This document shows positions 3,310-20,959 of a stretch of DNA of 25,651 nucleotides, piece by piece. The stretch is taken from IMG/VR virus record IMGVR_UViG_3300037882_001639, positions 1 through 25,651 of that record; one strand, given 5' to 3'. The notes beneath the pieces were generated by a model. That model searched no databases. It was given only the letters and a program-made list of their open reading frames with translations, and was not told the origin of the DNA. Position numbers and translations under genes: made by a program. Numbering within the stretch: position 1 is the stretch's first letter; the number at the start of each line of letters is the position of its first letter. This DNA comes from a virus.

Positions 3310-4317
3310 TTATGACTTCGAAAGTTCCCTGTAGAGCCTGTCAGCTTCATCACGAGGATTATCTGACGGCGGCAGAGGCTTTGTTGGGCTTCCGCCCTGT
3401 CTGCCATCGCTCTGTCTGGAAATCTTGCGAGTCTGTTGTTTGAGTAGTTTCTTACCGAGTTCTTCGCCGAACGCCATGTTGGCGACTCGAGCGATCAATT
3501 GCTGGGACATTTCTGCTGGCCGACCAAGTTTTTCGAGTCCGATTAACTGTGCCTTGACAGCTACATTGAGGTCTCTGCGTCGTTCCAATTCTTTCTCTGA
3601 CTCTTTCCCGGTTGTTCCGAATAAATCGGTGTGACCAAGTGAATCAACGAAACTGTCGAAACGCTGTTCTTCCGCGCTGGCACTTGCTTCCGCAAAGTAT
3701 GATTCCAGGGCTTCCAAACGAGACTCGTAGTGGTCGCGCATTCGCGTGAACTCACCGATAATCCCCTCGTCGTACTCGTCTTTGTCCAACGAAACCTGAT
3801 ACCGTCCGTCCTGCCGAGTTTCCTCTTTGGGTAGTGCGGCTTTCGGTTCTTCCTTTTTGACAAACTGACCCTTCTCGTTTCGAGTAGTGTCGCCTTCGCC
3901 TTCAGCCATAGCCTTGCGACCAGCTTCTAGCGCCGTCTTGTCAAATAGGCGTAATGCCCGATCCAACTCCTCGCGACTGGCGAAATCGAATAACTCCGAT
4001 TCATCAATGCCATACGCGGCTGCCTCGGCTTTTGCGTCATCAGTCATCCACTCAGGACTTACTGCTACGTCGTCACCGGATTCCTCGCTCTCATCAGGAG
4101 CGGATTTACTGCTGGACTTTTTCTCAGCAGGTGTTTCTTTTGTTTTGGCGGATGGCTGTTGAGTACCAGCCTGTTCGCTTGTTATCTGCGCATCGGACTT
4201 TGGTTCAGGTTCACCCTTGCGTTCCTGTGCTATCTCTTGAATGACGGTCTCCGCGTATTGCTTGATGTCGTCCGAGCTAGTGTCTAACGTTGCGTCTGTT
4301 AATTCCGATAATGCCAT
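3310..4317 (-). CDS. Scaffold-like capsid assembly protein
   Basis: A 335-residue, highly charged and low-complexity protein. Residues 30-85 are rich in E, K, S, P and Q. Residues 85-130 form an acidic helical segment ('DDAKAEAAAYGIDESELFDF'). Residues 190-245 look like a coiled coil ('MRDHYESRLEALESYFAEA'). The C-terminus (from about residue 295) is basic and disordered and ends 'ADRLYRELSKS'. This pattern, together with its place immediately before the major capsid gene and after the portal, is that of phage scaffolding proteins, which fill the procapsid and leave before packaging. No protease motif is evident. The gap to the capsid start is about 20 bases, so the two are cotranscribed. Confidence 0.7.
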   Translation of the reverse strand: MALSELTDATLDTSSDDIKQYAETVIQEIAQERKGEPEPKSDAQITSEQAGTQQPSAKTKETPAEKKSSSKSAPDESEESGDDVAVSPEWMTDDAKAEAAAYGIDESELFDFASREELDRALRLFDKTALEAGRKAMAEGEGDTTRNEKGQFVKKEEPKAALPKEETRQDGRYQVSLDKDEYDEGIIGEFTRMRDHYESRLEALESYFAEASASAEEQRFDSFVDSLGHTDLFGTTGKESEKELERRRDLNVAVKAQLIGLEKLGRPAEMSQQLIARVANMAFGEELGKKLLKQQTRKISRQSDGRQGGSPTKPLPPSDNPRDEADRLYRELSKS

Positions 4318-14512: not shown

Positions 14513-14725
14513 CTAAAACGTCCACGCTGGTACGTCCAACTCGATATGAATCCAGCCGCTTGGCACGATGTGCTTTCGCCCATCTTTAGTTTCAATGCGA
14601 TGCGTTCCGCTTTCGCTGACCGCAATCTTTGCCGCATTTTCAATGCGGACCTTTTCACCGCCGGGGAATGTGTACTCTCGCGAAACTTCCACCGGCTCCA
14701 AGTCAACAAACTTCGGCGTTGCCAT
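14513..14725 (-). CDS. Small phage protein, beta-rich
   Basis: A 70-residue protein starting at ATG 14725 (GGGAG 7 bases upstream), overlapping the end of the acetyltransferase-like gene by 23 bases. It is strand-rich: 'VEVSREYTFPGGEKVRIENAA' followed by 'GTHRIETKDGRKHIV', 'PSGWIHIELDVPAWTF'. The pattern (EYxFPGGxxVRIE..., GxHRIxTxDGxxHIVPxGWIHI) looks like a compact beta barrel. I have seen such short proteins in phages but cannot name the function. A long inverted repeat follows the stop. Confidence 0.65.
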   Translation of the reverse strand: MATPKFVDLEPVEVSREYTFPGGEKVRIENAAKIAVSESGTHRIETKDGRKHIVPSGWIHIELDVPAWTF

Positions 14726-15209
14726 CTGTGATCTCCCATTTGATCTTCATCTGCATCGGGTGCATGTCCACACGTGGCCGACTTGGCACGTTCCACGAAC
14801 CTCCACCCGCTTCACCTAAACACGTCATCCCAGCGGCACGGCACGATGCCCCGCCTTCTTCTGGTAGCGTGTACGTCACCAACTTCCTGTATCCCATCGC
14901 CCGAGCTGCTCGCCATGCTGCCCGATACAACATCGAACACGCATTGCGTTGACCCAACGTACATAACCTTGTGACCTCAACCGTCCATCCATCGTCAACG
15001 TGTCGCGACACTGGGCGACCTACAATCGCTATGCCGCATGGTTCCTCTGCGTCTTGTTCTGCCACTGCCACCGCAAACAATCCGCCCTGTGGTGGCTTGT
15101 GGTGTCTGTGGTGAAGTCCGACGAATACTCTTGCTTCCTTCAATGTGACCGGCACGATGAACAATGGCATGAACCCGAGTTGCGGATCAGCCGTTTTTGA
15201 TTGTGCCAT
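14703..15209 (-). CDS. XF1762-family GNAT-like protein
   Basis: A 168-residue protein from ATG 15209 with GGAGGA 5 bases upstream; the longer frame upstream is rejected. It matches the XF1762 pattern: 'FIVPVTLKEARVFVGLHHRHH' (about residues 17-37), 'GIAIVGRPVSRHVDDG' and 'VEVTRLCTLGQRNACSMLY' (about residues 66-95), 'RAAWRAARAMGYRKLVTYTL' and 'GGGSWNVPSRPR'. The family has a GNAT-like fold and is widespread in phages and plasmids, usually unassigned; acetyltransferase activity is presumed from fold only. Neighbours are small zinc-binding genes, so no pathway can be deduced. Confidence 0.85.
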   Translation of the reverse strand: MAQSKTADPQLGFMPLFIVPVTLKEARVFVGLHHRHHKPPQGGLFAVAVAEQDAEEPCGIAIVGRPVSRHVDDGWTVEVTRLCTLGQRNACSMLYRAAWRAARAMGYRKLVTYTLPEEGGASCRAAGMTCLGEAGGGSWNVPSRPRVDMHPMQMKIKWEITDGNAEVC

Positions 15210-15250
15210 GTCTTTCCTCCGCAACCGGGTTATGCCAAGCGTTCGTCGGA

Positions 15251-15391
15251 CTACGGACGCCCAAAACGAACTCTTTCGCCGCGATGATAACCGCGCAGCC
15301 AGTTCGACCACGAAGCCTTGCACCAATTCTGCTTTCCGTCTGGCTGTACCCAAATGCAAAGTGGTAAGTTTTTGTAAATCCAATGGATCAT
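15251..15391 (-). CDS. Tryptophan-rich small protein (46 aa)
   Basis: A 46-residue protein from ATG 15391 with GGAGG exactly 6 bases upstream. It begins MIHWIYKNLPLCIWVQPDGK, then 'QNWCKASWSNWLRGYHRGER'. Five tryptophans in 46 residues are unusual. A second frame (start GTG near 15434, reading QFFVRRLSGEEVQHDPLDLQ and joined in frame to the gene at 15209) covers the same bases. I prefer the 46-aa frame because of its Shine-Dalgarno; the other cannot be excluded. Function unknown. Confidence 0.5.
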   Translation of the reverse strand: MIHWIYKNLPLCIWVQPDGKQNWCKASWSNWLRGYHRGERVRFGRP

Positions 15392-15500
15392 GCTGAACCT
15401 CCTCGCCGGATAGCCGACGAACAAAAAATTGCACATGAGCCGCCGATCAGCCGTTTTGCCAGTGGACGACTCCACACCGGCGGCCATGTGAATTTAGTCG

Positions 15501-16423: not shown

Positions 16424-16437
16424 GTTTGTTACTCGTT

Positions 16438-16466
16438 AAAAAAAGCCAGCCCTTAACGTATCTGGC
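16438..16466 (-). terminator. Weak intrinsic terminator
   Basis: Minus strand GCCAG (16466-16462) pairs with CTGGC (16449-16445), 12-base loop, then TTTTTTT (16444-16438). It lies between the tRNA-like RNA and the gene starting at 16423 and could set a second, longer 3' end for that RNA. Confidence 0.5.
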
Positions 16467-16543
16467 ATGAAGTGCGCCACGTAACTTCAGCACTCACGCT
16501 TGCCCTCAACATTTCACAACGGGGCAAAGTGTTGTAATCAAAA

Positions 16544-16626
16544 AAGCCACGCCGGAATTGAACCGGATGCTTTTGCACGCGACGGGATGTCGCACCCAGC
16601 CTCCCTTTCGGGTCGCCTATGGCTTC
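16544..16626 (-). ncRNA. tRNA-like small RNA
   Basis: An 83-nt minus-strand RNA with its own promoter. A 7-bp acceptor-like stem joins AAGCCAT (16625-16619) to GTGGCTT (16550-16544). The T arm is canonical: CCGG, loop TTCAATT, CCGG (16566-16552). Between them are CCC-GAAA-GGG (16612-16603), GCGAC-ATCCC-GTCGC (16593-16579) and TGC-AAAA-GCA (16577-16568), in the positions of D, anticodon and variable arms. The GAAA tetraloop replaces the D loop and there is no U33-anticodon loop, so it should not decode. The -10 box of the promoter at 16634 predicts a start at 16627-16626, precisely at the stem. TTTT follows the stem. A degenerate tRNA or a dedicated tRNA mimic are both possible; no CCA is encoded. 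Confidence 0.6.
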
Positions 16627-16633
16627 AAGAACA

Positions 16634-16662
16634 AGTATAACCACATTGACCCAGGAAAGCAA
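16634..16662 (-). promoter_or_regulatory. Promoter of the shared GGGTC type for the tRNA-like RNA
   Basis: Minus strand: TTGCTT (16662-16657), 4 bases, GGGTC (16652-16648), 8 bases, TATACT (16639-16634); 17-bp spacer. The predicted start falls at the first base of the tRNA-like RNA. Confidence 0.75.
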
Positions 16663-19021: not shown

Positions 19022-19050
19022 ATCATATCACAACGGACCCAGGAAAGCAA
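19022..19050 (-). promoter_or_regulatory. Promoter of the shared GGGTC type, in a 33-bp direct repeat
   Basis: Minus strand: TTGCTT (19050-19045), 4 bases, GGGTC (19040-19036), 8 bases, TATGAT (19027-19022); 17-bp spacer. The 33 bases 19021-19053 are identical to 20853-20885, so dcm is flanked by direct repeats. It drives the genes from 18971 leftwards, probably including the large RNA. Confidence 0.8.
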
Positions 19051-19113
19051 CTGATTCCACCTAGGCGCACCAGAAGAAGATTACAGGTCAAATAGAAAGT
19101 GGCACGAGACGGT

Positions 19114-20853: not shown

Positions 20854-20882
20854 ATCATATCACAACGGACCCAGGAAAGCAA
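20854..20882 (-). promoter_or_regulatory. Promoter of the shared GGGTC type for dcm
   Basis: Minus strand: TTGCTT (20882-20877), 4 bases, GGGTC (20872-20868), 8 bases, TATGAT (20859-20854); 17-bp spacer. Identical over 33 bases to the copy at 19021-19053. Confidence 0.8.
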
Positions 20883-20959
20883 CTGGTTTCCATCCCCAAT
20901 TCCAACCACTTATTACGGGACTCAAGTTCAGAGGGTGCCACGATGCGGGTTATTTTCCG

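Follow-up and report, generated by a model that had tools for sequence, protein, structure and literature searches.

A phage RNA shaped like a class II tRNA but apparently without an anticodon loop: a putative tRNA mimic and its relatives

Can a phage encode a tRNA-shaped RNA that does not serve to read codons? This question is raised by a locus on the minus strand of the window, as we call the whole stretch of 25,651 nucleotides of viral DNA analysed here (IMG/VR record IMGVR_UViG_3300037882_001639, positions 1 to 25,651). A first-pass annotation had described a tRNA-like element at this place, and the sequence, the predicted fold and a descriptor control bear it out. The element comprises 82 nt (16544-16625, minus strand, as are all its parts) and can be read and folded as a five-arm cloverleaf. 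Its 7 bp acceptor stem, with the 5' strand AAGCCAT (16625-16619) paired to 16550-16544, encloses a D-position hairpin CCC-GAAA-GGG (16603-16612), a middle arm, a variable-arm hairpin GTGC-AAAA-GCAT (16567-16578) and the T arm CCGG-TTCAATT-CCGG (16552-16566) with its canonical T loop. The length of the acceptor stem and the TTCRA-type loop are as in canonical tRNA, whereas the T stem has 4 bp instead of 5, the short D hairpin replaces an arm with a large, GG-carrying loop, and a 5 bp anticodon stem with a 7 nt U33 loop is absent from the predicted fold. The class II tRNAs (Ser, Leu, Tyr) likewise have five arms, one of them a long variable arm; the element differs from them by the GNRA tetraloop of its D arm and the lack of a standard anticodon arm.

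All five helices are present in the minimum-energy fold (-34.6 kcal/mol, z -2.0), and 5 out of 200 dinucleotide shuffles reached an equally good fold. A descriptor consisting of a 7 bp acceptor stem, a 4 bp T stem with at least three G-C pairs and a TTCRANY loop matched one place in the window, namely this element, and none of 300 first-order randomised windows. As it was designed once the element had been seen, it gauges the rarity of the shape and is no blind prediction.

Directly upstream lies a sigma70-type promoter, TTGCTT-17-TATACT (16634-16662, minus strand; -35 box at 16662-16657, -10 box at 16639-16634). Its 17 nt spacer holds a phage-specific CTGGGTC block, the conservation of which is unusual for a plain sigma70 promoter. 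The window holds three exact copies of the 17 bp sequence AGTTGCTTTCCTGGGTC, each of them on the minus strand (mean in shuffles 0.05): before the tRNA-like RNA, at 19036-19052 before ORF 18971, and at 20868-20884 before the C5 methyltransferase gene 20835. Sites of the form TTGCnTTnCTGGGTC-TAnnnT with the conserved spacer block are found at +12306, -16662, -19050, -20882 and -21713, the first and the last of these being variants; the one at -21713, with 3 mismatches, stands ahead of a release-factor gene. Further variants are present in eight terminase-related loci (L069, L084, L085, L087, L096, L108, L120 and L121), each with a TANNNT box at roughly the expected spacing, and a start codon follows in six out of six for which downstream DNA was inspected. 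A strict TTGACA/TATAAT scan of the window does not list the site at 16634-16662; support for this promoter comes from the recurrence of the module. Since copies and variants recur in the window and in terminase-related phages, we take the AGTTGCTTTCCTGGGTC type to be a promoter type of this phage group. The conserved block hints at a dedicated regulator or sigma factor.

Spacing from the -10 box would place the transcription start at about 16627/16626 on the minus strand, that is, at the acceptor stem, with G16626 as the sole nucleotide between the inferred start region and the 82 nt fold; six T follow the fold. This is the arrangement proposed in the first-pass annotation: boxes and spacing are as described there, the module recurs, and the start itself is deduced. 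The further idea that such a transcript would need no 5' processing fits the copy in the window, but hardly the two relatives described below. These copies would need processing, because one directly follows a tRNA-like gene and the other a stop codon.

Would annotation tools see a tRNA here? ARAGORN at default settings called neither a tRNA nor a tmRNA in the window, and Rfam, searched with all families, gave no match at the gathering score and nothing tRNA-like at E<=10. A tmRNA, with its tRNA-like end and tag reading frame, was thus called by neither program. Both were controlled on L023, the 48-kb contig that carries the homologue described below: ARAGORN called a tRNA-Glu and a tRNA-Met adjoining the homologue, and in Rfam the tRNA-Glu passed the gathering score and the tRNA-Met gave no more than a tRNA-Sec match below threshold. 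With relaxed ARAGORN the window element is called as tRNA-Gly(tcc), covering the same positions, the L023 RNA as a tRNA-??? with a short loop, and the third sequence, L009, as other things. These calls carry no weight, because at the same setting (-ps50) 67 out of 100 shuffled sequences are called too.

The middle arm can be paired in two ways. An alignment of the three sequences supports GGG-TGCGACAT-CCC (16584-16597), in which 3 bp close an 8 nt loop TGNRACAY; it is paired in nine of nine cells (window, L023, L009) and one pair reads G-C, A-U and C-G, a result equalled by 90 out of 500 shuffles. Lower folding energy favours the pairing of 16593-16589 with 16583-16579, where 4-6 bp close a short loop. 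This second form is better by about 3 kcal/mol in the single-sequence fold of each RNA, but its register differs in each and only 11 of 15 cells are paired in a fixed alignment. Neither form gives a standard 7 nt U33 loop common to window, L023 and L009.

The L023 contig was among 61 stretches obtained when viral contigs were scanned with the exact T-arm 16-mer. It and the window also have GACCCGnAAGGG(n)AGGCTGnGTGCGACA in common outside the T arm, with a nearly identical core of about 28 nt, and the local alignment of this outer part scores 27, compared to a maximum of 17 over 12,000 shuffled comparisons. Of 18 model pairs, 16 hold in both RNAs, one is gapped and one is broken in L023. Four are compensated, three of them in the variable arm, where three of the four pairs are changed on both sides with pairing kept, and one in the acceptor stem. 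With slid partners we counted 0 or 1 compensated pairs; a column-shuffle control reached the observed compensation in 43 out of 500 cases and has little power with two sequences. Being invariant between the two RNAs, the D and T stems say nothing about pairing. A comparison of stems among related phages, which the first-pass annotation had suggested, could thus be made with two to three sequences and is favourable in part: the variable arm and the acceptor show compensation, as does one middle-arm pair when L009 is included, but not the D and T stems. Judged by the common core and the compensated pairs, the L023 RNA is clearly a homologue of the window RNA. It keeps the acceptor, a D-position hairpin (CCC-GCAA-GGG), the variable arm and the T arm, and shares no standard anticodon loop with it, which supports the earlier suggestion of a mimic rather than a decoding tRNA.

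The genomic setting of the L023 copy is an array of tRNA genes. It begins 2-3 nt after another tRNA-like gene, together with the tRNA-Glu and tRNA-Met, and a tyrosine integrase adjoins the array. The neighbouring tRNA-like gene (L023 1865-1966) is likewise without an ARAGORN call; its anticodon arm is seemingly one very long hairpin with a 5 nt loop (z -6.0). The terminase of the window was sought in the L023 record and not found, so the phages are not closely related by this gene. In planctomycetes, 4 of 119 genomes encode relatives of the L023 integrase, with identities of up to 51% across a part of it; a separate search for relatives of this integrase returned only itself.

L009 is a probable third member. 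It scores 39.7 bits (E 1.5e-8) with the covariance model R1, and the highest-scoring ordinary tRNA in 84 sources has 28.5 bits; the window RNA itself reaches 104 bits by construction. On its own, L009 is predicted to fold into five arms as well (GAGTA/TGCTC, CCAC-TTAG-GTGG, a middle hairpin, GCC-GCAA-GGT and the T arm). We grade it as probable only, because the T-arm pattern was the criterion of its choice and, with about 60 loci compared, the upstream similarity taken by itself has a per-locus probability of about 0.002. With one certain relative, the certain family consists of two members, from phages that are partly sequenced.

Beyond these, R1 found no match in 34 other records with terminase relatives (the 35th was that of L023 itself, a match by construction), in 392 genomes from the planctomycete phylum plus 170 of one order, both searched under strict filters, or in 50 complete records of phages sharing the T-arm word (50 of the 61 contigs). 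Blastn of the window and L023 RNAs against 50,697 phage records gave short chance-level matches only. Pattern scans of viral contigs returned 67 stretches for GTGCGACA plus T loop, 11 for the D core, 93 for the AGGCTG core plus T loop, 10 for a relaxed core and 18 for GTGNRACAYC plus T loop; once the matches of all pattern scans had been inspected, L023 and L009 were the only relatives left among the matches listed. The relaxed core gave at least 118 stretches in genome contigs, with no relative among the matches listed. Three bacterial matches have a T-loop-like word within 90 nt but show no T arm or fold and were rejected; the others were listed without such a word. Relatives of the window terminase were weak matches in phage records only and none in 294 planctomycete genomes. 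A full-text literature search, largely outside subscription journals, found no phage RNA of this kind described.

The scan with GTGNRACAYC plus T loop also led to unannotated tRNA-like RNAs in Streptococcus prophages (L444 about 3999-4103, L445 3998-4106, L450 about 1501-1602, L457 about 1400-1527, and relatives). They were left out of the family because R1 gives them at most 12.5 bits. In most of 17 annotated stretches they occupy the gap that precedes terminase, HNH or methylase genes, and an ArpU-type (FIG01114733) gene often lies immediately before them. Acceptor, D and T arms look mostly canonical, the variable region is of great length and differs strongly between elements, and a hairpin with a 7 nt NUNGC loop (alanine anticodons) is present in 15 of the 17 (204 of 3400 shuffles); ARAGORN calls one of the 17.

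Three other explanations have to be weighed. The element could be a real but strongly unusual decoding tRNA with the middle arm as an anticodon arm of non-standard loop, in favour of which one may cite the tRNA cluster around the L023 copy, the tRNA-Gly(tcc) span of relaxed ARAGORN, the residues C35, C36 and U73, which presumably would suit GlyRS, and the Streptococcus phage elements, which do hide an NGC loop without being annotated. However, the tRNA-Gly(tcc) loop carries A at position 33 and has no counterpart in L023, where the call is a short-loop tRNA-???, A1-U72 and A2-U71 clash with GlyRS identity, shuffled sequences receive relaxed calls, and default ARAGORN and Rfam make none. We consider a decoding tRNA unlikely. 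Degenerate genes occur in phage tRNA arrays, and the rarity of the element, not found in terminase relatives, would agree with a decaying, functionless tRNA gene. Against such decay stand the non-canonical D/middle core, which apart from the T arm is better conserved than any other part, the compensated pairs of the variable arm and a promoter of its own, of a maintained phage type; a pseudo-tRNA thus appears somewhat less likely still than a decoding tRNA.

The 3' end bears on the last alternative, in which the tRNA-like fold would be the 5' domain of a regulatory RNA of about 180 nt or a processing or stability element of an mRNA. A T run behind the acceptor stem (16540-16545, minus strand) is a possible 3' end. 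The earlier statement that the RNA ends in a U-run is therefore right as to the presence of the run, but this is no standard terminator, because its first two T belong to the acceptor stem. A terminator better in shape, GCCAG-12 nt-CTGGC followed by T7 (16438-16466, minus strand), lies about 80-100 nt further downstream, just ahead of gene 16423; its hairpin appears in the fold and was identified by eye, as the 12 nt loop is beyond the limits of the terminator scan. It speaks for a longer RNA, as does the L009 copy directly behind a stop codon. The pseudo-tRNA tRNA-Other of Bacillus cereus, like the window RNA a tRNA-like element outside translation, is contained in a larger iron-responsive RNA according to PMC3399842; the window fold, in contrast, abuts its own promoter. 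Moreover, the stretch 16437-16540 as a whole folds no better than shuffles, and the cloverleaf is broken in the predicted fold of a 190 nt transcript. We regard the longer RNA as improbable, to about the same degree as the pseudo-tRNA.

With moderate confidence we thus favour a phage small RNA that imitates a class II tRNA, does not decode, and engages enzymes binding the acceptor and T arm. A tRNA look-alike is probable since a usable codon-reading loop appears to be missing and a clear relative stands among the tRNA genes of another phage. We infer that it would be transcribed alone from the phage's own sigma70-type promoter, starting at the acceptor stem. Short hairpins would replace the D and anticodon arms, leaving the acceptor/T-arm half and T loop, and because these are kept, enzymes that grip tRNA by acceptor stem and elbow could bind it. 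Such an acceptor and T arm with canonical T loop is the part of a tRNA gripped by RNase P, RNase Z, the CCA enzyme, EF-Tu and a number of enzymes of modification and defence. For SerRS and LeuRS the anticodon is dispensable, and a five-arm body without one could still be charged by them; alternatively, the RNA may be an aminoacyl carrier for a synthetase that ignores the anticodon. During infection it might act as a decoy or competitor for an enzyme acting on tRNA ends or the elbow, for instance a tRNA-targeting host defence nuclease. This role is doubtful in itself and the partner enzyme a guess. We prefer it, with low confidence, to the carrier because host tRNA nucleases are argued to shape phage tRNAs (PMC10264068) and a competitive-inhibitor role was suggested for the tRNA-like domain of YrlA (PMC7790460). 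Recognition of the tRNA elbow, and viral RNAs that mimic it to recruit tRNA-binding proteins, are treated in PMC4810234.

The first-pass annotation had speculated about a link of the RNA with the release factor; we found no support for it, the sole evidence being the same genome. This RF1-type protein (minus strand, 21641-20960) has a PPT motif and GGQ and is without the N-terminal domain. Its gene is split over two frames at AGG-TGT-CTT-TAG (21542-21531, minus strand), the layout of the autoregulatory +1 frameshift of RF2 (prfB) but with the RF1-specific stop TAG. Read through, the gene gains in RF1 model score without a break (157.6 bits before, 181.7 after), and the phage relatives listed align with it as uninterrupted matches; the motif by itself has a single occurrence and is held also by 12 of 100 shuffles. 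PMC12421855 describes this kind of autoregulation as known from prfB but not from prfA, and no prfB motif with TAG was found there. A sequencing error may be the source of the split. A GGQ peptidyl-tRNA hydrolase-like protein with a 32% match to the release factor is encoded in L084 (1047-1346) and L085 (1488-1787), in both just before a promoter of the AGTTGCTTTCCTGGGTC type. Another gene of the window (14706-15434, minus strand) encodes an XF1762 family/Mom-like DNA modification protein.

Are there known RNAs of this kind? Y RNAs of the YrlA type occur in phages, too. Like the window RNA they have a tRNA-like domain without a decoding role, the one for which competition with tRNA nucleases was proposed (PMC7790460, see above), but the window RNA has no Rfam Y RNA match and no extra Ro-binding stem was seen in it. 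A Ro60 (TROVE) gene was found in none of 14 virus records including the window and L023, which are fragments, so that Ro60 could be host-encoded; the control search matched in 1 of 14 known genomes. The tRNA-like structures of plant viruses and mascRNA/menRNA keep the mimicry of acceptor and T arm and have dropped a working anticodon, as has the window RNA, which in contrast to them gave no match to their kind in Rfam at E<=10, is predicted to be a separate small transcript and needs no pseudoknot.

A bolder reading, which we hold to be rather unlikely, is a new family of class II tRNA mimics without anticodon, each driven on its own by a phage promoter, which would serve as decoys shielding the tRNA pool from host enzymes that act on the acceptor end or elbow. 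As tRNA-finding models demand an anticodon, annotation overlooks phage RNAs of tRNA shape that lack one. The homologous pair in two phages, one of them in a tRNA array, points to the existence and maintenance of such RNAs. If they bind tRNA-targeting defence enzymes, this would be counter-defence through RNA mimicry, testable with one small transcript.
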